Shown here: piece after piece, positions 3,881-58,200 of the stretch
Position numbering within the stretch: the first letter of the stretch is position 1
Layout of the letters: every line of letters begins with the position of its first letter
Source of the DNA: Cordylochernes scorpioides
Lineage: Eukaryota; Arthropoda; Arachnida; Pseudoscorpiones; Chernetidae
Assembly (NCBI GenBank): GCA_030710605.1
Contig: CP092872.1
Coordinates: forward strand, 9,106,230-9,170,229
Reading direction: 5' to 3'
DNA length: 64,000 nucleotides
Program-made: the position numbers and the translations under genes
The notes under the pieces: model-generated
Databases searched by the model: none
What the model was told of the DNA's origin: nothing
What the model saw: only the letters and a program-made list of their open reading frames with translations

Positions 3881-4047
3881 TTGCCATAATTCTTACAGGT
3901 CATCCTGTAAAGAGACCTAAGTACAGCCCATTGATTACAAACTCTCCCAAAAGTGTTCCTCAAGACTGCTCTACTAATGTATTAAGGCTGCAGTATGAAC
4001 CTTGCTAAAATGAATTGGAAATATAGTGAATGTTCCTATATAATAAC

Positions 4048-18357: not shown

Positions 18358-18852
18358 TTAATTGCCATCTATCGTTAATATTTTACCCAAATAAATTTTC
18401 TGGCAATGTGTTTCTTTTAAATATCATTAAATATTATCTCTACAGACCTTACTGCAATGATATGAGTTATTGAATGAGAGGGCTTAGCTCATCCGTAGTG
18501 AACCCTCTCAGCGCTTTCGCCAAATTAATCTCTAGACCGCTCTACTATTGTATTGGATTGGTTTGGAATATAACCTGTATTTTCTATGGAAGGCAGCTAT
18601 AGCATCCATAATTCACTAAACATCCCTAAGCTGCCTTCCATAGAAAATACAGGGTATATTCCAAACCAATCCAATACAATAGTAGAGCGGTCTAGAGATT
18701 AATTTGGCGAAACCGCTGAGAGGGTTCACTACTGATGAGCCAAGCCCTCTCATTCAATAACTCATATCATTGCAGTAAGGTCTGTAGAGATAATATTTGA
18801 TGATATTTAAAAGAAACACATTGTCAGAAAATTTATTTGTGTAAAATATTTA
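18358..18852. mobile_element. 500-bp palindromic MITE with ribozyme-like motif
   Basis: Two arms of about 240 bp meet at 18605. The ends read 'tttctggcaatgtgtttctt' and complement. The right arm keeps an intact hammerhead-like motif (18686-18751). The left arm has the mirrored segment with core changes (CGGATGAG). The right palindrome arm lacks this insertion. Confidence 0.8.
18686..18751 (+). ncRNA. hammerhead-like ribozyme motif, strand-permuted
   Basis: AGCGGU-C at 18686-18692, stem I UAG at 18693, UUGGC-GAA-ACCGCU at 18704-18717, CUA before CUGAUGA at 18732-18738, then GCCAA. An outer helix GAGAGGG/CCCUCUC follows. Compared with other copies, stem I changes from UGG/CCA to UAG/CUA and the outer helix changes from G-C to A-U. 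Both changes preserve pairing. The predicted cleavage position is after C18692. Activity is inference. Confidence 0.55.
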
Positions 18853-20560: not shown

Positions 20561-20672
20561 TTCTTCATATACATGCTAATAAGTACAACTTCCTTAAGTT
20601 TTGTCCATGAGTGTATTTGCAATGGTTTGTTCCTCAAAGGCTGCACGGTAGCTTTGACTGTTGTTGTTACAG

Positions 20673-23600: not shown

Positions 23601-26600
23601 ACGTGTTTGTCGAGGCATATTGGGGCCGCTACTTTATTGCCCGTAGTAGGTGTATTGAAACTTTGTCCCAGTTCGCGCTCGCTGAAGCAAAGTGTGGTCG
23701 CCGCACGTTCTATACTAGGATGATAAACAGAATTTATTATTTTTATATATTTTTAAAAGGATAGGTGCCACTTTTGTAACATGTATATCATCTTTCCGCA
23801 ACTTTATATTATATGTATTAATTACGATGATCTTATCTTGGATCTCATAATATTTATTTTTCTAATATTTTGATGTAGCTGATCGCCCGCCTTACTTTGT
23901 AAGATAATTCTGTAAAGAACACTGCAGAATAGAAATTCGGCTCAATCACAGACTGAGCCAGGGATGATATAGGCTCAACAGCGGCCCTTGCATCCCAGGC
24001 TTTCGCTGAAATCTAGATCCACACAGCCAGAAGGAATGATGCATTCTCCATGCACCGAGCGGCCATTGGTAGGCCCCTCGCGCCCGCCATTATGGTCTGG
24101 CTCCATGGGGTTGACCATTCACCCACAGGCGTCACCGAGAGTTCATTGGCAAGGTTGCTGACCGAGCCCTCTCGTTCGGACTTAGAAAGACCCGTCCTAC
24201 GCTCCAATAGGACTCCCCCCCCCCTTTAGCCCTCGTACCCTTATCCAGTACTCCCTGAATCTGCCGTCGAGTCAAGGACCTCTGAGGCACGAGGTTTGCA
24301 CGGGGAACCAACGTGAAGGCGGGGGGGTGGTACTGCTGTGTGCACCCCTTGGTTTTTCAACACCAGGCCTAGCCCTGGTGCAATTTTCGCGCACGGCAAG
24401 GACGCTCCCAATGGCGCACACACAGAGCGAAGACCCAAGAGTTTCAAGACACGTGCGCCTCGCCTCAGACAACCAAGGACAGACGGCCAGCTTACAGCTT
24501 CACTGGACATCAGTCAGTGGCATCCCTACGGAGGACAACACGCAGAGACGCCTCTCCACTCACTCCTCTAGAGTGATTGTAGAGGACGGGAAAAACTTCT
24601 TCCCCGTAAAGAACACTGCAGTGAAGTACAAGAGAATCCGGGGGGGTCAGTGGAAGGATGGTCTAAACCATTGGTTTACGACCGCTACGACCTGGGTTCG
24701 ATTCCCGCATTGGGAACTTTTTTTCCTGATAAAAAAAATGCTCCAATGGCCCCCGATTCTTGCAAAAGTCCAACCCCACCAACGAATGCAAGTAACCAAA
24801 AGGGGCTCTGGCATATTTGTAAGCGCAAAGGCGAACTGCTTTCCAAATGAGTAGACATGTAGTGCACTTACAATAAAAGAAGTCGCCTACTTCTACCTAC
24901 CATGATTATCATGGCCTGTACCACGTGTACTAGGGATAAGCAAAAAAAAAAGAGAGAGATAGAGAGAATCTGGATTGTTATATGGGCAGAGTGAATTTAA
25001 AGAAGGAATAACTCAGCAAGGCGATGTTTCTAAGCTGAAGGAACCAGGATGTCTTGTCCAGGCCGGGGTAGGACGGAGCTGGGCCACCAACGAAGAGGTC
25101 TTCCTCACCATCCTGAGCTACCGCAGCCGCGCCCAGCTACAGGCCACCTTCACGGCCTACGAGGGCCTTGCTGGCCATTCTCTACTGGAGGCCATCTCCC
25201 TGGAGTTCGGCGGGGACCTGCGTCGGGCCCTGGCGGCTGTAGGTAAGTCATTTGGGGAATCATCTACAAATGGTGGGAATACATGTCCTACGTGATACAG
25301 ACCATTGTTGTGGGTAGTTAAACACTCCTTTTACTGTAAGAACACTTTATATCTACACATGTACGTTTTAAAACTCTTCAAACATTACTATTATTAACTA
25401 CATAGCATTAATAGAAAGCCAGTTTTACCTAATGATATTTCCCCAGTTTTCACTGCAGAGACTTCTCTCTCTTCAGAATGTCGGTGCCTTGGCTATCAAA
25501 GAATAAATATCGTTTTTTTTTTCTATCTTTCTACATAGCATTAATTACATAGTAGTATTTAAATTCGAAACTATTTTAAAGGCGTAAGATTCTTTTGAAA
25601 AATAAACAATTTTTACTGTCCTTACTGCAATGGAAAAATTAATGGGAGGGCCTGGCTCATCAGTGGTGAACCCTCCCAGCGGTTTCGCCAGTTTAATCTA
25701 CCATACCGCTGTTATATTGCATTTTTGGAACTTCCTTTTATAGTGATACTGTTGATAGATTCTTGGAATGGGTATTTTAGAAGAACTATGGACATAAGCT
25801 TTGAGGACAGTAGAATTACATACATTTATAAATATATTTACATAGGAAAATAACAATGGCTATATACACATAGTAAAGTCAGTTTTACATGAGTCAAAGT
25901 TTCAGTTCAGCAAGTAAAGTTGAATATAGAGACATTGAGAGAGTATATATTTATCCCATTTTTATACATTAGACATGAGCCTCTAAAAGTGAGTCAAACT
26001 CGATGTTGTAGTCATTGTTAAAATCGATGTTTATCCAGAATTCGTACATGTAGAAAACCTTGCATGTAGACATTTTGACAATTAAAATAATTTTATTGAC
26101 ATCTTGTCAATACCTGCACTATTTAAAAATATATATATATATAATTATCTATATGCATAATACTATGTACAAAGAACATGGCGTCTCTGCCATCGCTGCA
26201 GAGTTGGTGGCGAATCGCCAGTGGGTCTCCAGCGATACCACGTATTTCGTGATCTACGAAGAAAACGCAGATTGCGTGCTTCGCCGCTGAGGAGATGGAG
26301 ATGGCGTGGTTCTCGAGACCAACTGGAAAGATCCTGGACTGCAGGTCCGGCGGCCGGCCGATGATGGAGAACGCCTACATGTAGAAAGCAGTTCTACTTT
26401 TGCACTAATAAATGTGCCAGAGCGCCGTTTTGTTACTTGTATTCACTGTGAGGTTGAAATTTTTTAAGAATCGGGGGCCATTGAAGAAATTCTTTTATTC
26501 AGAATAAAGTACCTAATGCGGGATTCAATCCTGGATTGTGACTGTTGGAAATCCACGTTTTATGCCACTCTTCGTGGACTGATAAACTTTTGAGCCACGA

Positions 26601-29600
26601 GGTTTTCAATGGGCAAACATTTAATGGACCACTTATCTACATGTATAGAAAGCAGCACGGATTTTTCACATACTAATTTCCCAGAATTTTCTTTTTAATT
26701 ACTTACAATCACTGGTAAAGTTTTTTTTTGCTATTCTATATACAGTTACGAGCGTCTTTCCTAATCAATCAGTCATCGGCCGATCAGCCGACTCTGTCAC
26801 CGTTTGCTTTTATTGGTTGGCTCACGTCACGCCACCTTTGCCCCCCCCCCCCTGCCGGCGGCGCGCGCCCGTTGGCTGCCTGCGAGCACGTGACTTCCCT
26901 GTGCGCGCGCATGGCGGGCGGTAGGCTATAGTTCTATATGCAGTTACGAGCGTCTTTCCTACGGAAGCCAACAGTACATAGGCAGATAAAGCACATAGGT
27001 TATAGATATTAACTAATATATGCATTTATATAAGGCGCCAATTTATAATTGTAACAAATAGTATTTGAATAAAAACATTCAATCGGGTAAAACACGGGCG
27101 TTGCCCGGGTCATTCGGCTAGTTTATATATAGAGGCGATTTTTTTATTTGAAGGTTATGGAGTGGGTTCAGGGATTATAATTGAATGCAATTCAACTGTC
27201 CTATAAGCTTATGTCCATAGTTTTCTTGAAAACCATTTCTGAGATTCCATCATTCAGTGCTGCGTATATAAGCAGAATCGTCCAATACAGTATTAGAGCT
27301 CTGAGAAGCGGTCTGGTGGATTAAATTGGCGAAACAGCTGGGAGGGTTCACCACTGATGAGCCAAGCCCTCCCAATATATTTTTTCATCACTGTAAGGGT
27401 AATAGAAGTTTGTATTATGTATAAAAGAAACATTCGTGCTTTTAAATCCTTTCATTTTATATGAATAGTGTATTATACATTTCCAGAATGTCTATTCTTC
27501 TGTTAAAGCTATTGTGTTTTCTCGATATGATGGATTCTATGATAGGTCGCTGTTGTCTATTGGGGATGTTGGAGTAATGGGTCTTTGGTTCTGATAGGGA
27601 GAAGGAATGACCTTTTTCTCTTATATGATGATATATTAATGATTTTCTGTCTTGATTCTTGATATTCGGTTTATGTTTGGATATTCTTATATTCAAATGT
27701 ATTCCAGTTTCACCTACATATTTGGTTTTGCCATCTTTGCATTCTATGGAGTTTAGGTATATGGCATTCTTAATATTGGTAGGATAATTAATATCATTGT
27801 TATCAAAATTCGAAACTATTATAGACGCGTATGATTCTTTTTAAAAATAAACAATTTCTACTGTCCTTACTGCAATAGAAAAATTAATGGGAGGGCCCCT
27901 GGCTCATCAGTGGTGAACCCTCCCAGCGGTTTCGCAAGTATTACCGCTGTTATATTTCATTTTTGGAACTTCCTTTTATAGTGCAGTAAGGACAGTAGAA
28001 ATTGTTAATTTTTAAAAAGAATCATACGCGTCTATAATAGTTTAGAATTTTGATAACAGATGGCGCGCTAATGTATCATAATATCATTGTTCTTTACAAG
28101 AAAATTAGACCTAATCCAATAAACTATTGTTCTTTAACACAAAGCAATAACGCGCCGTCTATACATATAAAATGAAAGGATTCAAAAGCACGAATGTTTC
28201 TTTCATACATAATACAAACTTCTACTGTCCTTACTGCGATGAATGTTCTTCTTTGTTATTACTGGTAGAGTTGGACTTTTGTAAGAATATAGGGCCATTG
28301 AAACAATGTTTCCTTCATTAAAAAAGTGTCCAATGCAGAATTCGAACTCGGGTAGTTGCTGTCAAAATTAGACGGTCATACATCCCTTTTTATCATTCCG
28401 TATGGATGAAATGCTATTTGAAGCATCATTCCAATTTTAACATATCTACTTATATATTTGCCTTATTCTGTCTGTTTGTCTGAAGCTCACGGATGGGATT
28501 TTTCATAACCATCGGTGGTTCAGTGGTAGAATGCTCGCCTGCCACGCGGGCGGCCCGGGTTCGATTCCCGGCCGATGCATTTTTTTTTTTTACAATTTTT
28601 AAAACTCATTTATATATTATACAAAATGACATCCACGGCGCCAATTTATAATTGTAACGAATAGTATTTGAATAAAAGCATTTAATCGGGTAAAACCCGG
28701 GCGTTGCCCGGGTCATTCGTATATAATAATTGTATAAACGAATGCATGACAAAATCACCGCGAATGTTTCTTTTTTTTTTAAGGCAATTATCGTTATTTA
28801 TCGTTAATTTTTGTTTCGATTTTATTGAAAAAAAAAACGATATGGTGCCTTTGAAAAATGATCTTTATTACTATGCAGTTTTCTATTTAGTCAATATACC
28901 TAAGTTCATGTTGCAAATGTAATTATCTCTATCGATTTAGTAGGTGAAATGCAAAAAAAAAAAAAAAAATCGACATGATGAAATCTTTATGAAAATTCAT
29001 ATTTTTATTTTTATATTTTCAAGACACACACAGTTTGGGGCGGGACGTTTCACAAGAGAGACATCCACGGCGCCAATTTATAATTGTAAAGAATAGTATT
29101 TTAATTAAAACATTTTAAAAACACACAGTTTGGAACGGGACGTTTCACAAGAGTGACATCCATGGCGCCAAATTTTAAAATATATACGCACTCGGGTAAA
29201 ACCCGGGCGTTGCCCGGGCCATTCGTCTAGTGTACTATAAACGAACACTAAAAAACGGCAACAACAAAAGCAGTTTAAAATACAAAAATATTTTCTCACA
29301 ATGAATTTCTTTTTATTACAAAACGCTAGCTTTCAAGTAATAATCGCTCTTCAACGGGCTTAATAAAACATCGACTATATCTTACAAGAAATATTTACAA
29401 AAACATACGCGCGCAGCGTTGAAATGTAATTTAACAATGTTATGGAATATGTCTATTTACATTTTTAGGGCAACCAGAACTTATAAATTCGATCTATTGA
29501 TTTCTTCTAAGATATCTGTTTATGCCCTAAAAACGTAATTAGACATATTCCATAAAATTGTTGAATTACATACCAATTTAAAAATTTCAGTTGTAAATAT

Positions 29601-31889: not shown

Positions 31890-31922
<33 letters not shown>

Positions 31923-34568: not shown

Positions 34569-34869
34569 GTCCAGGTGTGGAGTCCTGGGATCGATGTTGT
34601 TGCCAGCTGACGTCAGCCAATGGGATTCTTCTTCTTGGCCGCAGCGCCCAAGTCTTTTCTGCTTCTCCTCATAGTCCCAAATCCATTCCTTACATTCACC
34701 TTTTAGTCAAATTCTAATAATCCTCACCCTTTTCAAAGTTTTTTTCCCACTTTTTATAAAATACTTACAGTCGGTGGACGAGTGGGTAACACCCTCGATT
34801 CCCGACAGTCATGAACCGGGATTGAATCCCACGTTAACATTTTGTTTAATATGTGAATAACCTTCATAT

Positions 34870-35235
34870 TAACACAAAGCAATAACGCGCCATCTATACA
34901 TATAAAATGAATGAATTTAAAAGCACTAATTTTTCTTTTATACACAATACAAACTTCTACTGCCCTTACTGCTATGAAAAAAATATATTGGGAGGGCTTG
35001 GCTCATCAGTGGTGAACCCTCTCAGCGGTTTCGCCAATTTAATCCACCAGACCGCTTCTCAGAGCTCTAATACTGTATTGGACGATTCTGCTTATATACG
35101 CAGCACTGAAGGATGGAATCTCAGAAATGGTTTTCAAGAAAACTATGGACATAAGCTTATAGAACAGTAGAATTACATTCATTCAGTTTGTATTATGTAT
35201 AAAAGAAAAATTCGTGCTTTTAAATCCATTCATTT
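34870..35235. mobile_element. MITE with ribozyme-like motif, left arm only
   Basis: Ends 'aacacaaagcaataacgcgc' and 'cattcattttatat'. 'aaccttca' on the left and 'aacctca' on the right flank it. In the right arm the same place reads straight through (near 42935), a precise empty site. Bases 34569-34869 after the annexin stop are shared 3' flank with no gene. Confidence 0.75.
34990..35056 (-). ncRNA. hammerhead-like ribozyme motif, strand-permuted
   Basis: On the minus strand: AGCGGU-C-UGGUG, UUGGC-GAA-ACCGCU, CACCA-CUGAUGA-GCCAA, all three core helices perfect. The outer helix has one mismatch (GAGAGGG against CCCUCCC). Predicted cleavage after the C complementary to 35050. Confidence 0.55.
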
Positions 35236-36497
35236 TATATAACCTCACATATTATTCATTGTTACAAATATCATAAACTAGGTTGCTCTTGTTGAGCATT
35301 ACCTAATAAAATGATTTTGGAACCGATTTTCCACTTTTTAAAACCTAATTGGTAGAGATTTTGCAAAGAGAATATTTCACTCCTATCAAACAGAAATAAC
35401 ATTTCTTCCATCAAAATTGATGGCACATTGTTTCTTGTGAAAAAAATAGTACAAATGTGACATTGTACTGGGATAAGGCTCATAAATTAAGAATGGAGGT
35501 ACAGCTTGCATAACACTGATGAAGGCCAAAAGCTCGAAACGTATATGTGGTTAACTTTTCTTGATTAATCAAGAATGGGTATTTGGCCAATTCTGGAATA
35601 ATTAAAAATAAATGAATAGTTGATATTTATTCCGAAAGATGGCGCAAGCCATCAGCAACTTTCAGTTGCACGATAAGGAGATGCCTTTTTCTTAATTGTT
35701 TCTCGTGTCAGTTTTTAACAGAAGTGTCTTTTTACCACTAATCGGTAATTCCCAAGGTTATAGCTCTCTTAGTTACATACATACCCTTTATTTCTTCTTC
35801 TTCTTTCTTATCTCCACTCAATCATATTAGGGTATCAAGCTTGTAGAGCTTGAGATCATGACTGGGTGAAGTAGAATGATCTGCCTTTGTCATTAAGACT
35901 GGGAGCACTACTCAGTAGCAGGCCGACTTAGCTCCAAAAGAAATGGCCGCCTCTGGCATGAGGAACATACGCCATGTGCAGCTGCTCCTAACATGGAGTA
36001 CAAACGCTGCTCATCCTGTATCCCTGGATTAGGAGACCTTACAGGGTACTATCAGACAAGCCAACTGAGCCCAGGTTTTTTAGTGAGCTTGTTACTGCTC
36101 CCCCTCCTCCTTTTTCATCCGGGCTTGGAACCGACAAAGGCGAAGTTACCTTTATTCCCTAATAACTTTAATCTCACTGCACAGTTCCCTTAAGATAGAT
36201 TCTTCTATTCAACCTTTTAAAAGTACAATTATTTTTTTAATGAATTCTCCAATATATTGTATCAATAATCATGATGATTTATAAAACATTTCTATCTCTT
36301 TGGATTCCTTTTTTTTGTCTCCTTTTGTAGTTGCATATGGATTAGAAGTTTGTTTTTGTGTTTTATCTTTTACAAGTATCTCTGAATATCTCTTAAGTAG
36401 AGATAGAGAGAGATCTTTACACAAGGGGATAAGAAACAACAACAACAACAACAACAACAGAGATAGAGAGAAAAAGAGAGATTGAAAAAGTACTTTA
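35236..36497. other. annexin 3' flank, shared repeats
   Basis: 35520-35600 is a hairpin repeat (mirrored at 42580-42670). 35800-36180 is the dispersed repeat with 'gggtatcaagcttgta'. 36398-36470 holds the (AAC)n retroposon tail flanked by agagatagagag on both sides, present in both arms with different (AAC) lengths. Confidence 0.5.
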
Positions 36498-38317: not shown

Positions 38318-39182
38318 ATGAGGATCGCTTTTAGGCTCGAGCCGACTGCACGGGCTCGTAGCTTGTTCTCCCCACTCCAATTTACCACCAAGGACACGTC
38401 GCTGGTAAGCTTAGTTTTGGCTAAGCAGCCGTTAGTGATGGAGCTTCCCCTTGTGTCTCCCGCCAGCTGTGAATTACGGTCAGTAATTTGCTTTTTGGCC
38501 GCAAAGAAGAATTCGGCGAAGGACATTCATACTGAACTCTGTCAAGTGTATGGAGAAGGGTGTATGAGTTCCGGGATAGGGCGCAGATGGGTCAGAGAAT
38601 TTAAAAACGGCCGAACAGACGTCCACGATGAACCGCGTGCTGGGCGGCCATCGGTTTCGGACGAAACAATTGCCAAAGTCGAAGCGGCAATGCTTGAAGA
38701 TCGACGGGTTACTGCGTGGAAGCTCTGCGATTTGGTTCCTGATGTCAGTAAAACCACCATCGACAAGCTTTTTCGTGAACATTTAGGGTATTCAAAGGTC
38801 TGCGCAATATGGGTTCCGAAAATGCTGACTGAGAACCATAAACAGCAGTGGGTTGATGCGGCCCAGAAATTTCTCGATTGCCACAAAACTGACGGAGAGG
38901 AATTCTTGGATTCGATCGTTACTGGTGATGTGACCTGGGTACACTACACCACACCGGAGACAAAGGAGCAATCCAAGCAGTGGAAGCACACTTCTTCGCC
39001 GAAACCTCTAAAGTTTAAACAAACACTTTCTGCCGGGAAACTTATCGCTACCGTCTTTTGGGACCAAAAGGGTCCATTGTTGTGCGACTTTATGCGTCGG
39101 GGTACAACAATCAATTCCGACCCGTACTGTGAGGCCTTGAAACAACTTCGACGCGCGATTCAGAACAAGAGGAGAGGGATTT
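38318..39182 (+). pseudogene. mariner transposase, N-terminal part
   Basis: The frame is open through the paired helix-turn-helix region (TELCQVYGEG, VSKTTIDKLFREHLGYSK) to the first catalytic aspartate (IVTGDVTW) and GKLIATVFWDQKGPLL. It is cut at 39182 by the Ty3 insertion. The C-terminal part resumes at 41941. Next to the junction a run of five G changes the frame relative to the downstream part, so the gene was damaged by more than the insertion. Confidence 0.9.
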
Positions 39183-39388
39183 TGTGCTGAGAACATGTAA
39201 GAAAACATCTACCTATGTTTTCCCACGTGACGCAGCGGAGCGTGACCTTGGCTGCACGGGTGAGTCAGTTGTTGTTTGGCTCTCTGGATAGATGGACATT
39301 AAAACATGGTGGCAGCGATAACTGGATAAAATACGAACCCGTATATTGCAAAATATCGATTTTTGCGTACCTTGGAAGATAATTCAAC

Positions 39389-43229: not shown

Positions 43230-46200
43230 TCAGGGGTTGAGGATCTTCAGCAGGACCTTGCGGTAGTCCCCGCTGGTGTCTCTGGCTACAACCTCACTCA
43301 GGGGACGTTCGTATTTAGCTTCAAATCTTTCCTTGATGTCGGCCAGATCAATCTGTGCACACAGGTCTCACTTCAGAATCCACACTGCCTATGTAGTTAT
43401 CAGCAATCAGAAATTCCTATATAAACTCCGCCTTTGCCGGTCCCAAGCCAGGATGAAAAAGGAGGAGGGGAAGCAGTAACAAGCTCGCTAAAAAACCTGG
43501 GTTCAGCTGGCCCGGCTGATAGTACCCTGTAAGGGCTCCTCCTAATCCAGAGATACAGGATGAGCAGTGTTTGTACTCCATGTTAGGAGCGGCTGCACAT
43601 GGCGTCTGTTCCTCATGTCAGAGGCGGCCATTTCTTTTGGAGCTAAGTCGGCCTGCCACTGAGTAGTGCTCCCAGTCTTAATGACAAAGGCAGACGCATT
43701 CTACTTTACCCAGTGTGGAGATAAGAAAGAAGAAATTCCTATTAAATAAATAATAAATTTAAAACCATTCAACCATTTTGGTCAGCTCTGTTATTTCAGT
43801 TTGCATTGTGCAGCGTGGTAGTCCTTATTTGTTATAGCTAAATCGTTGTATAAATAGTTCAAAAGATACAATAAAAAGTACTAAAAAGAACTAATACGGT
43901 AGAACTTCTCTGATAAAAAGACAATACCAAGTTGCAGAGCCAACGTGTCTATTAGAGAGAGTTGTCCTCTTACAGGAGAGCTGCTTATTGGTAAAATTGG
44001 TAACTTTGGGGATAAAAACTGTCTTTTGCAGAGAGGTATCCTCTAGCAGGAATATCCTCTCATGGAGGTTCTACTGTATTTGTATTCTTCAGTGATTTAG
44101 GTATGTATCTTTCTTTAGATCAACGTATTTATTGACACTAGCAAATCACAATAAAATGAGGGGAACTATAGCTTTTATTTTTAATCAGAGGTGGTGTACT
44201 TCCTAGAGAATATATAGTTTGAGATTGTATAAAATGAAATAGAAATGCCTAGAACATTCTACCGTCTCATCAAACCGTATTGGCACTATACAGTTAAACC
44301 TGTCTATAGCGCCCCCTCTAAATAGCGCCTCCCTCTCTATAGTGCCCTATTTTAAATACGTAGTACGATGCGATTTACATTAAAAGTGACCTGTCTATAG
44401 CACCCCCTCTCTCTATAGCACCCTATTTTTGTGAGTCCCAAGAGGGGGCGTTATAGACAGATTTAACTATACTGTCACCAAACACAGCCACCAGGAATAA
44501 ATCCTCCAGATTTGAAAACAGCCAAATCAATCAGCCCCGATGTATCCAATGTATTGGCCCTTTACAAGTTTTACAGAACTGCCCAAGAGAAGAAACGTTT
44601 AGAATAGAGATCCCTATATAGATTGGTATAGCGAATGAAAACATTCACGTCTTAATGTTTTCATTCGTTATATATAGATGGCGCGTTAGTGCTTTGTATA
44701 GATTGGTATGTAAATGAACGATCACCTGTAAATACAGTTGAATCTGTCTATAGCGCCCCCTCTTGGGACTCACCAAAATAGGGTGCTATAGAGAGGTAGT
44801 GTAATAGACAGGTCACTTTTAATGTAAATCGCATCTTACTACGTACAGGTAAACCTGTCTATAGCGCCCCCTCTTGGGACTCACCAAAATAGGGTGCTAT
44901 AGAGAGGAGGTACTATAGACAGGTCACTTTTAAGCACAAGGTAAATAAGACCAAATACAAATAAATAAATAGTGTGTGACGTTTCGGTAACAGCGTTGCT
45001 ACCATCTTCAGACAAAACTTTTGTTATTTGGATTTAGTATTATTACCGTGTGTTTATAATCTATAATCCAAATTGTGCCTTATTAGGTCACTTTTGATGT
45101 AAAATGTTTGCATTTTAATGTTTAAAATCGGGTGCTATGGAAGGAAGGCGCTATTTAGAGGGGGCGCTATAGACAGGTTTAACTGTAAATAACTAATCTT
45201 TTATAAGCAATTATGCATCTGGGAGAATCCTGTGAAGGGAATGGGTCCCTAATAAAGGGCTTGTTGTTGTTGAGAATGGTTCTCAGTGGACACACTCTAC
45301 AGGGATACTGTAACTGAGGGTAACTAAGTAATCTTTTATAAGCAATTATGCATCTGGGAGAATCCTGTGAAGGGAATGGGTCCCTAATAAAGGGCTTGTT
45401 GTTGTTGAGAATGGTTCTCAGTGGACACACTCTACAGGGATACTGTAACTGAGGGTAACTAAGTAATCTTTTATAAGCAATTATGCATCTGGGAGAATCC
45501 TGTGAAGGGAATGGGTCCCTAATAAAGGGCTTGTTGTTGTTGAGAATGGTTCTCAGTGGACACACTCTACAGGGATACTGTAACTGAGGGTAACTAAGTA
45601 ATCTTTTATAAGCAATTATGCATCTGGGAGAATCCTGTGAAGGGAATGAGTCCCTAATAAAGGGCTTGTTGTTGTTGAGAATGGTTCTCAGTGGACACAC
45701 TCTACAGGGATACTGTAACTGAGGGTAACTAAGTAATCTTTTATAAGCAATTATGCATCTGGGAGAATCCTGTGAAGGGAATGGGTCCCTAATAAAGGGC
45801 TTGTTGTTGTTGAGAATGGTTCTCAGTGGACACACTCTACAGGGATACTGTAACTGAGGGTAACTAAGTAATCTTTTATAAGCAATTATGCATCTGGGAG
45901 AATCCTGTGAAGGGAATGGGTCCCTAATAAAGGGCTTGTTGTTGTTGAGAATGGTTCTCAGTGGACACACTCTACAGGGATACTGTAACTGAGGGTAACT
46001 AAGTAATCTTTTATAAGCAATTATGCATCTGGGAGAATCCTGTGAAGGGAATGGGTCCCTAATAAAGGGCTTGTTGTTGTTGAGAATGGTTCTCAGTGGA
46101 CACACTCTACAGGGATACTGTAACTGAGGGTAACTAAGTAATCTTTTATAAGCAATTATGCATCTGGGAGAATCCTGTGAAGGGAATGGGTCCCTAATAA

Positions 46201-49200
46201 AGGGCTTGTTGTTGTTGAGAATGGTTCTCAGTGGACACACTCTACAGGGATACTGTAACTGAGGGTAACTAAGTAATCTTTTATAAGCAATTATGCATCT
46301 GGGAGAATCCTGTGAAGGGAATGGGTCCCTAATAAAGGGCTTGTTGTTGTTGAGAATGGTCCTCAGTGGACTCTATAAGGGATACTAGTGGGATCAGGTG
46401 AACTCACTCACCTCGGACCTTGACACCAGAATTCGGATCACAGTCTCATCATCTGTCCCAGGACCTTTGAAACTGTCGGCCAGCTGCTTGGCGAAGAAGG
46501 TCACCCGGTCTTGCATGCACAGTACTGGACACCAAGTGAGGTTTATAAATGAGTCTATGTTTCAGACGGAGGAATTTGTGATTGTTAATCATCGTATGAA
46601 TTATAACCATGTTGCATGAAAAGTGAAAGTTGTATAAGTTTATGATTTTGCTTTAAAATGAATCGATGTTGGTTCCATATGCTTGAATTGAATATTACAT
46701 CTTACTCCTATATATTTTATTGATTAAAAAGGAACACAAAAAAAAAAACTACAATAGCAAATGATTTGATAACTAATAAAGGAAAAAAAACAATAATATA
46801 TATTTTTTAAAATGATGATGATAAAAAATTGAATATGTCTGCCAGAAAAATGATTCTATGAATTAAAAAATAAGAATAATTACAAACTTAACATATTAAC
46901 TTCAAACACATGATGAGTTTAATAGACATCGATATAGAAGGGCCTAGGGTCCATCTTGGTTCTTTCGTGGCTCACCATTGTAACAGCTATGGAAGATCTT
47001 ACCTCGGACGAGAGCGTGGAGTACACGTCTTATGAGAAAGAATGCGTGGAACCGCTTTTGTTCAATCTAATGTCTAAAGTCTAATGAATAACATAAACAG
47101 GAAGATACCATCACAATACAGATATCTTATTCATGATAAACTTGTGAAAAAAGTTTTTAAATTACAAAATATTTTCTCACAATGAGTTTCTTTTTATTAC
47201 AAAACGCTAGCTTTCAAGTGATAATCGCTCTTCAAAGGGCTTAATAAAACATCGACTATATCCTACAAGAAATATTTACAAAAACAAACGCGCGCAGCGT
47301 GGATATTTATAACTGAAATATTTTAATTGGTACAATTTTATGGAATATGTCTATTTACATTTTTAGGGCATAAACAGATATCTTAGAAGAAATCAATAGG
47401 TCGAATTTATAAGTTCTGTTTGCCCTAAAAACGTAAATAGACATATTCCATAACATTGTTAAATTACATATCAATTTTAAAATTTCAGTTGTAAATATCC
47501 ACGCTGCGCGCGTATGTTTTGTAGATATTTCTTGTTAGATATAGTCGATATTGTTTTATTAAGCCCGTTGAAGAGCGATTATCACTAGAAAGCTAGCGTT
47601 TAGGAATAAAAAGAAACTCATTGTGAGAAAATATTTTTGTATTTTAAACTGCTTTTGTTGTTGCCGTTTTTTAGTGTTCGTTTATAGTACATATGCTAAA
47701 ATTGGAATGATTCTTCAAATAGCATTTCATCCATACGGAATGATAAAAAGGAATGTATGACCGTCTAATTTCGACAGACACTACCCGAGTTCGAATTCTG
47801 CATTGGACACTTTTTTAAAGAAGAAAACATTGTTTCAATGGCCCTCTATTCTTACAAAAGTCCAACTCTCTCAGTGATAACAAAGAACAACATTCATCGC
47901 AGTAAGGACAGTAGAAGTTTGTATTCTATATACAGTTACGAGCGTCATTCTTCATCAGTCATCTCTGTCACCGTTTGCTTTTTTTTTTTTTTTGGAATGG
48001 CGCCCTCCTATTGGTTGGCTTCGATCACCCCACCTTTGCCCCACTCCCACTCGCTTTTTCGTTTTTGTAACCATTGTGTTGGCGCGGGTCGCTCCTTAAA
48101 TAGATGCATATATTAGTTAATAACCAAATGGAATCCTCTCTTTCTTTTTCCCAGTAAGAGACGCCTACGGAAGCCAACAGTACATAGACAGATAAAGCAC
48201 ATTGGCTATAGTTATTAACTAACATATGCATTTATATAAGGCGCCAATTTATAATTGTAACAAATAGTATTTGAATCAAAACATTCAATCGGGTAAAACA
48301 CGGGCGTTGCCCGGGTCATTCGGCTAGTTATGTATAAAAGAAACATTCGTGCTTTTAAATCCTTTCATTATATATGTATAGATGGCGCGTTATTGCTTTG
48401 TGTTAAAGAACAAAAGTTTATTGGATTAGGTCTTATTTTCTTGTAAAGAACAATGATATTATGATACATCAGCGCGCCATCTGTTATGAATATTCGAAAC
48501 TATTATAGACGCGTATGATTCTTTATAAAAATTAACAATTTCTACTGTCCTTACTGCACTATAAAAGGAAGTTCCAAAAATGAAATATAACAGCGGTATG
48601 GTAGATTAAACTGGCGAAACCGCTGGGAGGGTTCACCACTGATGAACCAGGCCCTCCCATTAATTTTTCCATTGCAGTAAGGACAGTAGAAATTGTTTAT
48701 TTTTAAAAAGAATCATACGCGTCTATAATAGTTTCGAATTTGGATAACAATGATATTAATTATCCTACCAAATATACCCATACTCCATAGAATGCAAAGA
48801 TTGCAAAACCAAATATGTAGGCGAAACTAGAAGACATTTAAATATAAGAATATCCAAACATAAACCGAATTAAAGAATCAAGACAGAAAATCATTAATAT
48901 ATCATCATATAAGAGAAAAAGGTCATTCCTTCTCCATATCCGAACCCATTACTCCAACATCCCCAATAGACGACAGAGACTCATCATAGAATCCATCATA
49001 TAGAGAAAACACAATAGCTTTAACAGAAGAATAGACATTCTGGAAATGTATAATACACTATTCATATAAAATGAAAGGATTTAAAATCACGAATGTTTCT
49101 TTTATACATAATACAAACTTCTACTGTCCTTACAGTGATGAAAAAATATATTGGGAGGGCTTGGCTCATCAGTGGTGAACCCTCCCAGCGGTTTCGCCAA

Positions 49201-52200
49201 TTTAATCCACCAGACCGCTTCTCAGAGTTCTAATACTGCATTGGACGATTCTGCTTATATACGCAGCACTGAAGGATGGAATATCAGAAATGGTTTTCAA
49301 GAAAACTATGGACATAAGCTTATAGGTCAGTAGAATTACATTCAATTATATTCCCTGAACCCACTCCATAACCTTCAAATAAAGAAATCGCCTCTATATA
49401 ATATATATATATAAATAGCAAAAAAACTTTACCAGTGATTGTATGTAATTAAAAATAAAATTCTGGGAAATTAGTAAATGAAATATTCGTTCTGCTTTCT
49501 ATACATGTAGATAAGTGGTCCATTAAATGTTTACCCATTGTAAACCTCGTGGCTCAAAAGGTTATCAGTTCATAAAGAGTGGAATAAAACGTGGATTTCC
49601 AACAGTCACAATCCAGGATTGAATCCCGCATTAGGTATTTTATTCTGAATAAAAGAATTACTCCAATGACCCTCGATTCTTGAAAAAGTCCAACCTCACA
49701 GTGAATACAAGTAACAAAACAGGACTATGGAACATTTATTAGTGCAAAAGTCGAACTTCTTTCTACAAGTGTAGACTTTCTACAAGTAGGCGTTCTCTGC
49801 CATCGGCCGGCCACCGGACCTGCAGTCCTGGATCTTTCCAGTTGGTCTCGAGGACCACGCCATTACCATCTCCTCAGCGGCGAAGTACGCGATCTACGTA
49901 TTCTTCGTAGATCATGAAATACGTGGTGTCGCTGGAGACCTGCTGGTGATTCTCTACCAAACTCTGCAGCGGTGGTAGAGGCGCCATATTCTTTGTACAT
50001 AGTATCATGCATATATATAATTATATATTTTTAAATAGTACAGACTGTGCACTTTGTATATATTGACAAGATGTCAATAAAATCCTTTTAATTGTCAAAT
50101 TGTCTACATGTAGGATTTCTACATGTACAAATTCTGGATAAGCATCGACTTTTAACTATGACTACAACATGGAGTTTGACTCACTTTTAGAGGCTCATGT
50201 CTAATATATAAAAATGGTGTAAATATATACTCTCTCACTGTCTCTATATTCATCTTTACTTGCTGAACTGAAACTTTGACTCATGTAAAACTGACTTTAC
50301 TATGTGTATATAGCCATTGTTATTTTCTTATGTAAATAATACTATGTAATTAATGCTATGTAGTTAATAGTAATGGTTGAATAAATAGTTTTAAAACGTA
50401 CATATGTAGACATGTGGTGTTCTTACAGTAAAAGCAGTTGCTAACTATCCACAATGATGGTCTCCAGCTCCAAATAACTTTATTAGGTGCCGCTCAAAAA
50501 GAGCAACCTAGATCATCATATTTATAATATACTGTGGGTTTGTTCATTTGTACAGGGTTTGTTCATTTACAATTTATATTGATGTCGTTGGGTCCTTGGG
50601 GATATTGTTCTTGAGAAGGTTTTGTCTGGCTTGTTTTATATTCAAGGTGGGTTTATTTTCCCTTTTTTTCCCACTTTTCGTCATTCTGGCTTAATTGATG
50701 GAGAATTTGTCTAGGTTTTAAATTCAATAATGGTCTGTATCACGTAGGACATGTATTCCCACCATTTGTAGATGATTCCCCAAATGACTCACCTACAGCC
50801 GCCAGGGCCCGACGCAGATCCCCGCCAAACTCCAGGGAGATGGCCTCCAGCAAAGAATGCCCAGCAAGGCCCTCGTAGGCCGTGAAAGTCGCCTGTAGCT
50901 GGGCGCGGCTGCGGTAGCTCAGGATGGTGAGGAAGACTTCTTCGTTGGTGGCCCAGCTCCGTCCTACCCCGGCCTGGACAAGACATCCTGGTTCCTTCAG
51001 TTTAGAAACATCGCTCCAACAGACATTGCTCCAATGGCCCCCGATTCTTTCAAAAGTCCAACCCCACCAGCGAGTGCAAGTAACCAAACGGGGCTCTGGC
51101 ACATTTGTAAGTACAAAGTCGAACTGATTTTCACATGTGTAGACATGTGGTGCGCTTATAGTAAAAGCAGTCGCTAACTACCCACCATGATTATCATGGC
51201 CTGTACCACGTGTACTAGGGATAAGAAAAAAAAAGAAGCATCGCCTTGCTGAGTTATTCCTTCTTTCAATTTACTCTGCCCATATAACAATCCAGATTTT
51301 ATTTTATTTTATTTTGCTTATCCCTAATACACGTGGTACAGGCCATGATAATCATGGTGGGTATGGTAGGCGACTGCTTTTACTGTAAGTGCATCACATG
51401 TCTACACATGTGAAAAGCATTTCGACTTTGTACTTACAAATGTGCCAGAGCCCCATTTGGTTACTTGCATTCGTTGGTGGGGTTGGACTTTTGCAAGAAT
51501 CGGGGGCCATTGGAGCATTTTTTTTAAATCAGAAAAAAAGTTCCCAATGAGGGAATCGAACTCGGGTGGTAGCGGTCGAAAACCAACGGTTTAGACCAAG
51601 CATGTCAAACTCGCGGCCCGCGGGCCTCATGCGGCCCACAACGAATAAATTTGCGGCCCACCAGACAATATATTTTAATAATTTTTTTTTATAAATTAAA
51701 AAAAATAATAATAAAAATTTGTAGCCTAATTTTTAAAAATTGTAATTATACATAATTTATTTATTAATAACGAACCACTGGTCGCCATATATAAGTCGTG
51801 AGTTTTGATAATATTATACCTACATACATAACGTATGTACATCGCCATAAGTATTGTGTGCCTTAAAGTTTAAAGAAAATATTCTTTCAGAGTACTAGAA
51901 TTTTTTTTTTTTTTTTAAGTTACGTTTTATAAAGGACTGCGGCAGGTGATTATAAACAATACTTAAAGTTATACCGCATAAGTTTCTTTTTTATGAAAAA
52001 TCAATATTTATTTCAAAGAGAAATATTTACTATTTCTCTTTTAAATAAATATTGATTTTTCATAAAAAAGAAACTTATGCGGTATAACTTTAAGTAAAGT
52101 TACGTTTACGTGCGGCCCACATAATCTTATTACTTTCTTATTTGGCCCGTGTTAGGATTTGAGTTTGACATGCTTGGTTTAGACCATCCTTCCACCGACC

Positions 52201-55200
52201 CCCCGAATTCTCTTGTACTTTACAGTAGATAGTGTTCCTTACAGAATTATCTTACAAGAGAAGACGGGTGATCAGCTACATCAAAATATTAATAAAATAA
52301 ATATTATGAGATCCAAGATAAGAGTATCGTAATTAATATATATAAAGTTGCGGGAAAATGATATTCATGAACCAAAAGTGGCACCAATCCCTTTAAAAAT
52401 ATATAAAAATAATAAATTTTGTTTATTATCCTAGTACTAGCCGAATGACCCGGGCAACGTCCGGGTTTTACCCGATTAAATGTTTTTATTCAAATACTAT
52501 TCGTTACAATTATAAATTGGCGCCGTGGATGTCACTCTTGTGAAACGTCCCGCTCCACACTTTGTGTCAGAGAAGCGATATTTTTATAAAGAGATGATCT
52601 GGCTTTGTGTCTTCTGCTCGAATGAATGTTTTTCTGTTAGAATTTTGTTCCTGCACACTAAAAATGAACTGGCTTCACCCGTGGTCTCAGCCTTTTCGGA
52701 ATTTTTCCCTATATAATTTTGTATCTGATAATCAAACATGATACAGCAATATTGTCATCATCATTTTATGACTAAAAAAACAACTATTTTTGCCCAGAAC
52801 CTGTTAATTTTATTTTTTATTGGCTAAAAATACGATAAATATATTTTCCAGATTTTTCTCTATGTACTGTCAAAACACGTTTTACATGTACAATAGGTAA
52901 GCTGATTTTACCTCCCATCTTCACCGCTAGAGGCGCTGCTTGCGAGCGAAAGGGCAAATTTGCAACGCAATTTGCAAATAACTCGAAGAATATTCGGGAT
53001 AGAGACCTGAAATTTTCACTATAAGTTTTTCCAGATTCTACTCTTTATACTGTTAAAATTTCAGTCAGATTAGTTACGTATTGTGGACGTGTATAGCCGA
53101 CATAGGAACAAACACACATACATACATACATACACTGACTTTTAAATATATAGGGATAGAACGTAATGGCGTAATGGTACTCATGTACCAAAAGTAGCAC
53201 CTCTCCCTTTACATAAAAACATTGAATTTTGTTTATCATCCCGGTACAGAACACAATGGCGGTGATAAAGAATGAACCATAAAATCAGTTTGGGAAAATT
53301 CAGACCAACAACCTGTATACCATGGTTTCTGGTTTTGGACCTCATCAGTACAGTGGCGGCTTCGATTTCATAACATACTACGAGTGAAGTTATGGAATCG
53401 GTCAAACTTGCTAAAAAAGTGTTTAAGCTGGTGAAGTAGCTCTGGTACTTAAATACTAGACACAATACTACCCACCTCCACCAACTCTTACTATTTGTGC
53501 TTGGAATAAGAGAGAGAGAAGAAGAAGAACCTGCTGGTTGATAATATTGAAGCGATGCAGCAAAGAAGTAGAAGAGAAGAAGTGGGCAAGCCAAGAGAAA
53601 AAGGTATGCAGGGGCCCCTTCAAGGAAGTGTTGATTGACAAATTCCAGAGGAGGGGGCGGCAGACGGGGAGTCAAGCTGGTGTCGTCGTGAAGGAAACAG
53701 CCGAGTTAGCGGCCGGCCTGCCGGGGGTTTGTGCACCGAGAAGACCTGGCAGTCTGGGGAGAGAAGTCTGTCTGATGACAACGGGACCTGCAGCAAGGAT
53801 AACGGCGGGGGCGACAGACGCGGCAAGTTGGCTACGGGAAGTGGGCTCCGGGACCGTGTGGATGAACAAGAGGAGGACGGTGCAAAAGAGGGACGAGGAG
53901 GAACCTACCTGGGGCGGCATTGAAGGCAAGTTTCTCATCTACTGTATATAGCTATTAATCTACTTTTAAAGATCTGGTAATAAATCCATAGTACTAAGCT
54001 GTATCCAAAACGAACCCACATTGTTTTCTCAGAAACCTTGCACACAAACATCGACGGCTGAGAAGAGTCGTAACAATATGCTTAGTATCCACTTCAGTGT
54101 TAAATGAGCAACAATAAGTTGGTTTCTACTCATTTTTCTAGTGTAATTTGAATGTTTGTAGTGATGGCTTCATTAGGTTGTGCTAACCTAAAGTTAAATT
54201 AACATAGTCAAAACTATGGATTAAATTGTACAACTGCCAACAATCAGCAACGTAGGGAGAACCACGAAAGCTTTAGCCTTAGTGAAGACATTTTCAAATG
54301 ATTTCAAATTTGATTGTATGCTCCATTTAAAAGCTTGCATAATTACATTCAAGCTTTAGCCTTAGTGAAGACATTTTCAAATCATTTCAAATTTGATTGT
54401 ATATTTGATTGTATGCTCCATTTTAAAATTTGCATAATTAAAAATTCAACAATTCTCCTTTACTAATTTACTTCAATATGTAATATTGTACGTAAGAGAG
54501 AGAGAAAGTACACATAATATAAACATGCGAAAATTCGAAACTATTATAGACGCGTATGATTCTTTTTAAATTCACTACTGATAAGCCAGGCCCTCCCATT
54601 AATTTTTCCATTGCAGTAAGGTCAGTAGATATTGTTTAATTAAAAAAAATCATACGTGTCTATAATAGTTTCAAATTTTCATAACAGATGGCACGCTAAT
54701 GTATCATAATATAAACGTGTGTTTAACATAAAAATGTTTGAAAAGTACGAAAAATAGAAAAAAAAGTTAGATGTTTATATTCAAAATATTTTCTCCCCCT
54801 TTCAATAACATTAATAATTATTTTGTATAAAAATAGTATATGACATCAATTTATTATGGTGATACTCCTGTGGAAGGACTGACCGAATCGAAAACTAGAT
54901 AATATTTTTTTTTTCGAACAAGAAACTTAACCCTTAAGCTTTATTTACTTTATAATATTCAAAATATAAAAACGGCATATCCTGACGGCTTACATGAGAA
55001 ATTTATATGTAGAACGTTCATTTAGGTTATTTTTTTTATCATATTTGGTCATTTTCTTGATAAATCAAGAAAAGCTAACTACGTTCGCTTTTCGGGCTGA
55101 TGGCCCTCGTTGGCGTGGGGTACTTCAATGTCCAAATATTAGTCCACACGCACGCACAAGAATCTTTCTAAAAAATCTCAAGAAATTGGTTGTTAAGGAT

Positions 55201-58200
55201 CTTTTTGAATAAAATTTGAATAGGAATATTTATCTCCCATCCTGATCGAATTAAAATGAGAAAGTGTATCTCTAAAGTAAAGGAAAGCTCACATTGAAGA
55301 GACGCTGAGCCTCCAACTCAGCAAGATCCAGGTCAGGGGACGAAGCCTCTTGACGGTCCGCTGTCACTAGAGCCCGGACTATCCGCTCCATGTCACCTGT
55401 TAGGTCCCCGCACAAGAATGCCTCGAGCTCCTGTCGGAATCCTGCGTCAGGACTCCTGCAACTCTAGCTACGTGGATTGACGGACTTCGGACTTACGTTC
55501 CTTGAAGATTAGCTTGAGTTCGCGCAGCTCCTGTCGTCACAGGTTACATCAGCTCTGTGTCGTCAGTGGCTTCTCACTCACTTACCCAGGCCTCGTAGGC
55601 ACACAGGATCTCAATGATGCAGATCTCGTTGGTCCCCAAACCCTATAACAACAACAGTCAAAGCTACCGTGCAGCCTTTGAGGAACAAACCATTGCAAAT
55701 ACACTCATGGACAAAACTTAAGGAAGTTGTACTTATTAGCATGTATATGAAGAATTTTTTTAACAGTGAACCATTCGACCTTTCCCAAACCATTACTCTA
55801 AAGAAAGAAACTGGCTTTGAAGCCGTATTTTCGGAGTTTGGGTTGGCATATGTGTCTGGAGCATATGATTTTCTTTTTGCGTAGGACATGTTCTGTTCTT
55901 CAAAAATGGATCCAAGACTTTGAAAAATATATGTCAGAGGCTTGGTTGTCTGTATTATATATGGGCTCTTGGCTTTTATTCGGTAAGACATGGGCTGTTC
56001 TTCTTCAAGGGATCCAAGGTTTTGTGTATATAATGGCAAATATTTTTTTGTCTATATGCTTGTTCTTTCCTCTGTGAGACATGTGCGATTCTTCAACACG
56101 GGATCTAAGGTTTCGAGTCTGTGATGACAGAGGTTTGGTTGTCTATATGCTTGGGATTTCCTTCTGTGAGATTTTGTTGGCAATACGACTGGGCCCTTGG
56201 GCTTTTCTCTGTGAGAAATGTACTGTTATTTAACAAGGGATCAAAGTTTTTGAGTCTGTGATGGCAGATATTTTGATGCCTATATGCTTGAACGTTCCTC
56301 TGTCAGACATGGGCTGTTCTTCAACAAGATATCTAAAGTTTCGAGTCTGTAATATCAGAGGTTTGTTTATCTATATTCTTGGGCATTCCTTCTGTGAGTT
56401 TTGGTTGTCTATACGACTGGGCCCTTGGTTTTCCTCTGTGAGCCATGTGCTATTCTTCTCCAAGGGATCCAAGGTTTTGACTGTAATGGCAGATATTTTG
56501 CTGTCACTATGTTTGAACTTTCCTCTGTAAGCCATGTGCTGTTCTTTAAAAAGGGATCCAAGATGTCGAATCTGTGATGGCAGATATTTGGTTGTCTATA
56601 TGCTTGGGCTGCTGTGAGGTTTTTTTGTCTATATGACTGGACCCTTGGGCTTTTATTTTGTGAGACATATGCTGTTCCTCAACAAGGGATCCAAGGTTTC
56701 GAATTGGTGATGGCAGAGGTTTGTTGTCTATATGCTTGGGCCCTTTAGCTTTCCTCTCTGAGACATGTGTTGTTTTGCAACAAGGAATCCAAGGTTTCGA
56801 GACTGTGATATCAAAGGTTTGATTGTCTGTATTATATCTGGTCTATGGGTTTTTATTTGGTAAGACATGGGCTTTACTTCTAAACGGGATAAGAGGTTTT
56901 GAGTTTTTGATAGCATAGATTTCTCGTTGCCTCTATGCTTGAGGCCTTTGGACTTTCCTCTGTGAGCCATGTGAGGAATGTCTTAATAAAGTGTTGTTGT
57001 TGTCGTCAGGCAGGTTGGACATGCAGTGTGTAAATAAGTGAGTTGTAGGAGCTGGTGGAGGACCTGAAGACAGAGCTCGGAGGACACTTCGAGGACGTCT
57101 GTCTCGCTCTACTGATGCCGCCCAAGGACACGTAAAGTTTCGAGAGGTTTGGTTATCTGTATGTCTCGATGTTTTCTTCAATGGTCGCATCAAGCAGGAT
57201 GTCTTGAGGCACGTGAGATGGTGACAAAGTTGAAGTGAATAATTCACGGCCTGGTGGCAACAACACACCGGATTAATTGAAACTCCCCACATAAATATTT
57301 GAGTGCAGGCCGGCAGACACATGTGCAATTAAACCATCATCGACCGCGCTCGACCTTGTAGTTTATGGTCTCTTTCCTGCAAGGACATGGATCGTCAGGC
57401 CCCACATGTACCAACTGATCTATCAACATAGATACACACTAGAGCATTAGCCTACACTCCTAGTACACATACAACGGGGCATTTCAAGAAGAAATCAAAC
57501 ATAAAAATGTATTATGATGCATTAGCGTGCCATCTATTATCCAAATTCGGAACTATTATAGACGCGTATGATTCTTTTAAAAATTAAACAATTTCTACTG
57601 TCCTTACTGCAATGGAAACTGGCGAAACCGCTGGGAAGGTTCACCAATGATAAACCAGGCCCTCCCATTAATTTTTCCATTGCAGTAAGGGCAGTAGAAA
57701 TTGTTTAATTTTTAAAAGAACCATACGCGTCTATAATAGTTCCGAATTTGGATAAAAATGTAAGAAAATTCGAAACTATTATAGACGCGTATCATTATTT
57801 TAAAAATAAAGCAATTTTACTTTATAATTGTATATAATTCTACTGCCCTCAAAGCTTATGTCCATAATTCATCTAAAATACCCATTCCAAGAGTCTAGCA
57901 TCAGTATCACTATAAAAGGAAGATCGAAAAATGCAATATAACAGCGGTATGGTATATTAAACTGGTGAAACCGCTGGGAGGGTTCACCACTGATGAGCCA
58001 GGCCCTCCCATTAATTTTTCCATTGCAGTAAGGGCAGTAACAATTGTTTAATTTTTAAAAGAACCATACGCGTCTAAAATAGTTTCGAATTTTCATAACA
58101 GATGGCGCGATAATGCATCATAATATAAATGTATAGATATAATAATCTCGAATTATTCTAACCACGGTATCATCAAAGAATAGGAAGAACACACAAAAGT

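Follow-up and report, generated by a model that had tools for sequence, protein, structure and literature searches.

The questions raised by this locus are what kind of RNA motif lies on the minus strand at positions 49153-49219 of a 64,000-nucleotide (nt) stretch of the genome of the chernetid pseudoscorpion Cordylochernes scorpioides (GCA_030710605.1, contig CP092872.1, positions 9,106,230 to 9,170,229 of the forward strand; hereafter the window, whose numbering is used throughout) and what kind of mobile element carries it. An initial annotation, made from the letters alone, had proposed a hammerhead ribozyme core of permuted strand order inside a family of miniature inverted-repeat transposable elements (MITEs). 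Strand order, core and helices mark the motif as a hammerhead of type SGC (non-circularly permuted) and a predicted ribozyme. Its vehicle, judged by units and ends, is an abundant short retrozyme-like element of 372-378 nt bearing Penelope-type ends without Penelope coding sequence. It is probable that this hammerhead belongs to a retrozyme of the animal kind, which would be cut, circularised and spread by Penelope-like machinery.

Read from 49219 to 49153, the minus-strand RNA is AGCGGU-C-UGGUG-GAUUAAA-UUGGC-GAA-ACCGCU-GGGAGGG-UU-CACCA-CUGAUGA-GCCAA-G-CCCUCCC. The three hammerhead strands follow each other as III-UH-I, II-GAAA-III and I-CUGAUGA-II, which is the type-SGC order; the initial annotation had given the same strands in the order A-C-B, and the reading agrees with it letter for letter. 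Every core position has its canonical nucleotide, and stems III, II and I are of 6, 5 and 5 bp, the same values as given before. We take the core numbering to be C3 U4 G5 A6 U7 G8 A9, G10.1-C11.1, G12 A13 A14, A15.1-U16.1 and H17=C, both of these pairs being present in this copy. By analogy with other hammerheads, self-cleavage is predicted after H17, between 49213 and 49212. There is also an additional 7-bp helix, overlooked in the initial annotation, between GGGAGGG (49180-49186) and CCCUCCC (49153-49159). The parts of the motif are given below and were read from the sequence except where a different basis is stated.

49153..49219, minus strand: predicted type-SGC hammerhead motif, 67 nt, core fully canonical (sequence and strict scan)
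49214..49219, minus strand: stem III 5′ strand AGCGGU (block S)
49213, minus strand: H17 = C, with predicted cleavage at 49213/49212 (analogy with hammerheads)
49208..49212, minus strand: stem I 5′ strand UGGUG
49201..49207, minus strand: 7-nt linker GAUUAAA, from stem I to stem II
49196..49200, minus strand: stem II strand UUGGC (block G)
49193..49195, minus strand: G12 A13 A14
49187..49192, minus strand: stem III 3′ strand ACCGCU, beginning with A15.1
49180..49186, minus strand: fourth helix 5′ strand GGGAGGG, abutting stem III (sequence, minimum free energy (MFE) folding and pair counts)
49173..49177, minus strand: stem I 3′ strand CACCA (block C)
49166..49172, minus strand: CUGAUGA core
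49161..49165, minus strand: stem II strand GCCAA, beginning with G10.1
49153..49159, minus strand: fourth helix 3′ strand CCCUCCC

The fourth helix closes strand C into a hairpin, abuts stem III with 0 nt between them and, as in type-SGC, connects stems I and II at their outer ends. With this pairing the RNA therefore consists of two hairpins, one formed by stem III around a loop of 21 nt and the other by the fourth helix around a loop of 20 nt, and these loops would pair with one another twice, as helices I and II, to form the hammerhead core. Pseudoknot-free MFE folds of the motifs of three subfamilies (ViennaRNA) contain stem III (6/6 pairs) and the fourth helix (7/7) together with small loop hairpins, and when the 372- and 378-nt units are folded as circles both helices are retained (6/6 and 7/7).

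The permutation, which the initial annotation believed to be undescribed, has been published as type-SGC and assayed (PMC10085705). That work predicted 583 sequences, and the five that were assayed all cleave at the predicted site; in one of these, all four stems were subjected to disruption and rescue. The argument made in the initial annotation from the 7-nt linker and the proximity of stems I and II is likewise found in the published literature. Type-SGC hammerheads are known from metatranscriptomes and environmental data, and that work reports no example in a known organism's genome (PMC10085705). The permutation is not new, and what is new here is the host and the vehicle. Literature searches, limited to openly licensed PMC papers, listed no later description of an SGC hammerhead in a genome. 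With Rfam, no hammerhead reached the gathering score in the window and none appeared at E≤1 in loci L009, L010, L070 and L078-L080; at E≤1 it also misses the minimal type I motif of the host's Penelope-like elements (PLEs) described below. A scan of viral_contigs with a 21-mer of the motif gave 0 matches.

A strict scan was made for the three blocks in any of six orders, with the core nucleotides, stems of at least 4 (I), 4 (II) and 5 (III) bp and a length of no more than 120 nt. It found three SGC matches in the window (25644, 34990, 49153) and none in the other five orders, while 200 dinucleotide-preserving shuffles of the window gave 0 strict matches, whatever the order. Across 101 sequences (360,435 bases), 51 SGC matches were found in 30 sequences and 0 in the other five orders; the 51 do not represent a density, because most loci were chosen for carrying the C block and some consist of several tandem units. 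In 14 evenly chosen 10-kb windows there was one strict SGC match. A chance origin of the motif was rejected on the excess of strict matches over shuffles, confined as it is to the SGC order.

The 17-nt strand-C block, with at most 2 mismatches, has 87,021 + 87,336 = 174,357 matches in the 2.62-Gb Cordylochernes scorpioides assembly, against 51 + 48 for the reversed-block control; full elements are fewer than this, because the count covers one block only. There are at least three subfamilies, these being A (372-nt unit, L010), B and C (378-nt unit, L081), all of which retain the core and helix plan. Between them, a U-A pair in stem II is replaced by C-G, a G-C in stem I by A-U, and a G-C in the fourth helix by A-U, with the latter change also seen in one B copy (L028). 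Pairing was counted in an alignment of 52 distinct copies, from which 5/57 distinct motif rows had been excluded for large insertions, deletions or rearrangement. In its 1191 cells, 90.9% are paired, as against 36-56% when slid by 1-3 columns and 89.6 ± 0.2% in shuffles. Doubly changed cells number 19, compared with 6.2 ± 2.1 in shuffles (0/500 reach 19) and 1-7 when slid, and they fall in stems I and II and the fourth helix, the latter having five of them.

The motif recurs in tandem units of 371-372 nt (378 nt in subfamily C), in arrays of up to 9.3 copies. These short, low-GC units, with one hammerhead each and no protein, resemble metazoan retrozymes but carry an SGC hammerhead instead of type I. 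Two tandem units hold no open reading frame (ORF) of more than 54 amino acids (aa), and hence neither the reverse transcriptase (RT) nor the GIY-YIG ORF of a PLE. The arrays raise the alternative that the permutation is only apparent, the active fold being a nested type III-like hammerhead in which S1 and C1 combine with G2 of the next unit, since tandem arrays do supply S1-C1-G2 in nested order. Such a fold calls for a stem II loop exceeding 300 nt, in place of the 7-nt linker of the local fold. The fourth helix is changed on both sides in five cells and corresponds to a stem that the assayed SGC-3 ribozyme requires (PMC10085705). We consider the nested fold improbable and retain the local type-SGC fold.

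The ends of the insertions are informative regarding the vehicle. The first nucleotide after the predicted cut is taken as unit coordinate 1, and 39 insertions were found to comprise a minus arm joined head to head with a plus arm. With hits of <84% identity or <60 nt and ends at locus borders excluded from the end counts, outer 3′ ends (n=80) form two clusters ~31-34 nt apart, with 26 at 146-158 (site 1) and 32 at 178-190 (site 2), another being between these and 21 elsewhere; the 58/80 ends at the two sites make up a tail of the Penelope-like kind. The corresponding start sites are ~150 and 181 nt from the cut in the unit, and 155 and 189 in that of subfamily C. Leaving aside 21/39 head-to-head cases with an end cut off or at neither site, both outer ends could be assigned in 18 insertions, where 16/18 pair site 1 with site 2 (P = 6.6e-4), or 15/17 if the duplicates L001 and L003 are counted once (P = 1.2e-3). 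Inner ends are scattered, and only 1/85 lies within 3 nt of the cut. On this count a linear ribozyme-cut monomer was rejected as the usual template, though 12 inner ends are within ~13 nt.

These ends also bear on the MITE proposed in the initial annotation, that is, a DNA transposon whose inverted repeats fold in a hammerhead-like manner, the ribozyme being incidental. The inverted ends would suit such an element, as would the 9-17-bp repeats that flank some insertions. Target duplications, of fixed length in a MITE, are clear in a minority of insertions and differ in length (12 bp in L031, 9 bp in L012, 16-17 bp readable in L081). However, what look like repeats are entire arms whose inner junctions vary, the outer ends occupy two sites 31-34 nt apart instead of one symmetric terminus, and tandem multimers reach 9.3 units. 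A MITE is scarcely credible as the vehicle, and that assignment was abandoned; the look of terminal inverted repeats comes from the head-to-head arms with their Penelope-type double ends.

One array, L009, has 20 substitutions relative to L010 that are common to 8/8 complete units, each unit having 0-2 private ones, and its inverted arm carries 8/8 of the shared substitutions in the stretch compared. Such homogeneity would be expected from a single circular unit copied by rolling reverse transcription, but also from a tandem source that was already homogeneous.

In a Penelope element of the lizard Anolis, two internal RT start sites account for a 30-40-bp genomic tail, and both target strands are cleaved and extended (PMC11167929). 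A comparable course of events can be proposed for the retrozyme. Tandem units would be transcribed, and the transcript would fold as the two hairpins whose loops pair as helices I and II, with a cut after C17; a host ligase would then circularise the unit-length RNAs. The endonuclease-reverse transcriptase of a resident PLE would recognise a hairpin ~115-165 nt downstream of the cut, cleave both strands of an AT-rich target and begin reverse transcription from either of two positions separated by ~31-34 nt, in most cases one for each strand. The two complementary DNAs (cDNAs) would travel a variable distance round the circle, from <1 to >9 rounds, and be joined head to head, giving inverted arms and, in at least some insertions, a target duplication. 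In this scheme we infer the cleavage, the circularisation, the circle as template and Penelope as agent. On balance we lean slightly towards a genomic SGC hammerhead that makes retrozyme circles, reverse-transcribed by Penelope-like machinery from two points, one for each target strand.

PLEs are present in the host, with 150 RT matches scored out of 20,033 candidates and open frames of up to 865 aa. Locus L078 (C6:24627000-24636500) contains tandem PLEs with a 2,755-bp period and open frames of 812-813 aa, and a minimal type I hammerhead motif (type assigned by reading) occurs in 10/10 fetched loci of this 812-aa family. The ends of their pseudo-long terminal repeats (pLTRs), taken at ≥90% identity, lie in 10/10 cases at +51 (4) or at +84 to +91 (6) from the type I cut. 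The retrozyme and the PLEs of the same genome thus have a two-site end signature in common, together with a start-site hairpin that differs in sequence (CGCGC/GCGCG in unit A, TTGCCA/TGGCAA in unit C and CTGGCC/GGCCAG in the PLE). The 812-aa PLE was rejected as a close parent of the unit, there being no blastn similarity at E≤1, and a local tblastn search for a PLE RT in the loci searched gave a best E of 1.7. A second Penelope-like RT group was noted at L079 (C3:29397500-29402500), where CTGAAGA...GAAAGC near 3899 may represent a minimal type I hammerhead. L021 has a lone GIY-YIG endonuclease fragment (9258-9650, minus strand; E = 2.9e-4, 21.5 bits, just under the Pfam cut-off) which resembles the Penelope endonuclease, with a mariner-like element (so labelled by reading) nearby.

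The units might instead be solo pLTR fragments of an undetected autonomous PLE with a type-SGC hammerhead, and not an independent retrozyme. Their ends and inverted arms are of PLE type, PLEs normally have a hammerhead near the RT start sites (PMC11167929), solo pLTRs are known (PMC3846280), and a survey scoring 150 of 20,033 candidates leaves room for other PLE families. Set against this are the tandem arrays of 371-378-nt units without a coding insert, the type I motif in all ten loci of the 812-aa family, and the lack of blastn similarity between that family and the unit. We regard solo pLTRs as unlikely, while giving them some weight, and prefer an independent retrozyme.

Several observations weigh against a retrozyme that depends on its hammerhead and on Penelope machinery. 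Stem III is without any double change among the 52 copies. Pairs with both partners changed number 5 (4.2 ± 1.5 in shuffles, 7 at a slide of +2) and further pair types 20 (18.5 ± 1.5 in shuffles), neither being above control, and the independent covariation events are judged to be about four or five because related copies share doubly changed cells; covariation in the stems is limited and suggestive only. The outermost pair of stem I is open in 24/52 copies, stem I is weak in subfamily C, and just 13/57 distinct motif sequences (identical copies counted once) pass the strict test, so that much of the motif variety represents decay. Inner ends pile up at 1-13 (n=8) and 366 (n=4), above an even spread, some of them merely marking where similarity to divergent subfamilies stops. 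Target duplications exceed the 95th percentile of shuffles in just 6/25 distinct insertions, with one of these (L032) off the boundary, and 8/8 complete L009 units have a fourth-helix mismatch, yet the array is long. Among the host PLEs, 13 hits of <90% identity end at 50-56 and 79-89 but also at 30-35 and -11. No autonomous PLE with an SGC hammerhead was found, and when the unit was compared by blastn with 13 loci, PLE-bearing or neighbouring, there was no match at E≤1. Lastly, an Anolis PLE with a dead hammerhead inserts equally well in vitro, and no RNA reads start or stop at its cut site (PMC11167929).

The in vitro insertion of such Anolis mutants gives substance to the view that the hammerhead is a relic or dispensable, the element spreading via uncleaved multimeric transcripts; the single inner end within 3 nt of the cut and the majority of distinct motif sequences that are not strictly intact are in keeping with it. 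Countering this, the core and the helix plan persist in each of the subfamilies A, B and C, and the homogeneous L009 array fits a one-unit circle. In addition, when identity to subfamily A is taken over ungapped positions, the hammerhead exceeds the remaining unit in three B copies (91-94% identical, against 79% outside) and two C copies (92%, against 80-82%), with no such excess in a third C copy (85 vs 84%) or in one divergent copy (77 vs 81%). A relic has, in our estimate, a small yet appreciable probability, and a functional hammerhead is preferred.

Seven copies of the motif had been listed for the window in the initial annotation. All of them are present, but only three (25644, 34990, 49153) are strictly intact; that at 18686 was recovered only by a relaxed scan (stem I ≥3, II ≥4 and III ≥4 bp). 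The copies at 27307 and 49153 are not independent and represent a single ancestral insertion, because they are inside the arms (27126-28212 and 48328-49400, 93% identical) of a large inverted duplication. The copies are as follows.

49058..49349, minus strand: retrozyme arm, unit 236 to 372 then 1 to 155 (BLAST of the 372-nt unit); the 49058 side ends within the site 1 cluster and the 49349 side is the variable 5′ end
34868..35240, both strands: head-to-head retrozyme insertion (BLAST, strict scan, end map), with the minus arm 34868-35181 ending at site 2 (181) and the plus arm 35185-35240 at site 1 (149); its SGC motif, 34990-35056 on the minus strand, is strictly intact, the fourth helix having one A.C mismatch
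25604..25824, minus strand: subfamily B copy with an intact SGC motif at 25644-25710, stem II CUGGC/GCCAG and H17=A (BLAST, strict scan)
27177..27468, plus strand: duplicate of the 49058-49349 insertion with a stem III mismatch, containing the 27307 motif (BLAST, inverted duplication)
18439..18788, both strands: two facing subfamily C copies, 18439-18558 minus and 18669-18788 plus (BLAST), one motif (18476-18541, missed in the initial annotation) having a mutated core, with the second motif at 18686-18751
48592..48658, plus strand: subfamily B copy, G10.1 lost (sequence)
57943..58009, plus strand: subfamily B copy, C11.1 changed to U (sequence)

A further copy, also missed previously, is located at 27889-27948 and has a deletion in the S/stem I region. 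The inverted duplication as a whole relates 19343-30772 to 46130-56973 in stretches of ~88-97% identity, and several repeats are duplicated with it, including the index retrozyme. Satellite-like tandem arrays occur at 6271-7768 (41 bp period), 45185-46371 (135 bp) and 60253-61649 (85 bp). The window also has a U6 small nuclear RNA match at 31874-31979 (91 bits, full model length), a tRNA-Gly(gcc) at 28509-28579 and a mariner-type transposase fragment (Transposase_1 and Mos1 helix-turn-helix) at 38318-39190. Pfam searches of 10 window ORFs gave matches in four (a DDE transposase, a mariner-type transposase and two integrase fragments) and an RNase H domain in a fifth; the integrase fragments look Copia-like and Pao/BEL-like, the element names being our own reading.

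As far as our literature searches reach, the combination of an SGC hammerhead, an animal retrozyme and Penelope-type ends is new. If correct, it would to our knowledge place non-circularly permuted hammerheads in the genome of a known animal for the first time, and would provide DNA-level evidence for Penelope elements mobilising retrozymes. A ribozyme block with ~174,000 matches in a sequenced animal offers type-SGC a host and a vehicle as well as a collection of naturally occurring variants. The double ends are relevant to the open question of which autonomous element mobilises animal retrozymes, for which PLEs are named "a strong candidate" (PMC7229834). The pseudoknotted hammerhead occupies the place of the Penelope hammerhead, on the template strand upstream of where RT starts, so that what the ribozyme does becomes testable by comparison.

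Compared with type-SGC and HRIMA-1 (PMC10085705), the motif has the same S-G-C order, core nucleotides, stems I-III and fourth helix, and the zero spacing between stem III and the fourth helix is found in a few type-SGC sequences also. It differs in having an animal genome assembly as host and a very abundant retroelement as vehicle, the linker here being 7 nt. Metazoan non-LTR (long terminal repeat) retrozymes (PMC7229834) likewise consist of short tandem repeats of low GC content, each unit with a single hammerhead, and reach very high copy number, with 126,247 hammerhead motifs in the axolotl. They have type I hammerheads, unlike the SGC type, Penelope-type double ends and inverted arms found here, and the word "inverted" is absent from the main text of that source. 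With PLEs the unit shares paired start sites 30-40 nt apart, inverted arms, AT-rich targets, tandem copies and a hammerhead upstream of the start sites on the template strand (PMC11167929, and PMC3846280, which reports 8-10-bp duplications and pLTRs in inverted orientation, one of them having a 31-bp tail), and PLEs normally carry that hammerhead beside the RT start sites (PMC11167929). The unit differs from PLEs in being without an RT/endonuclease ORF, in the topology of its hammerhead and in the distance of its start sites from the cut, these being ~150 and 181 nt as against 51 and 84-91 in the host PLE.

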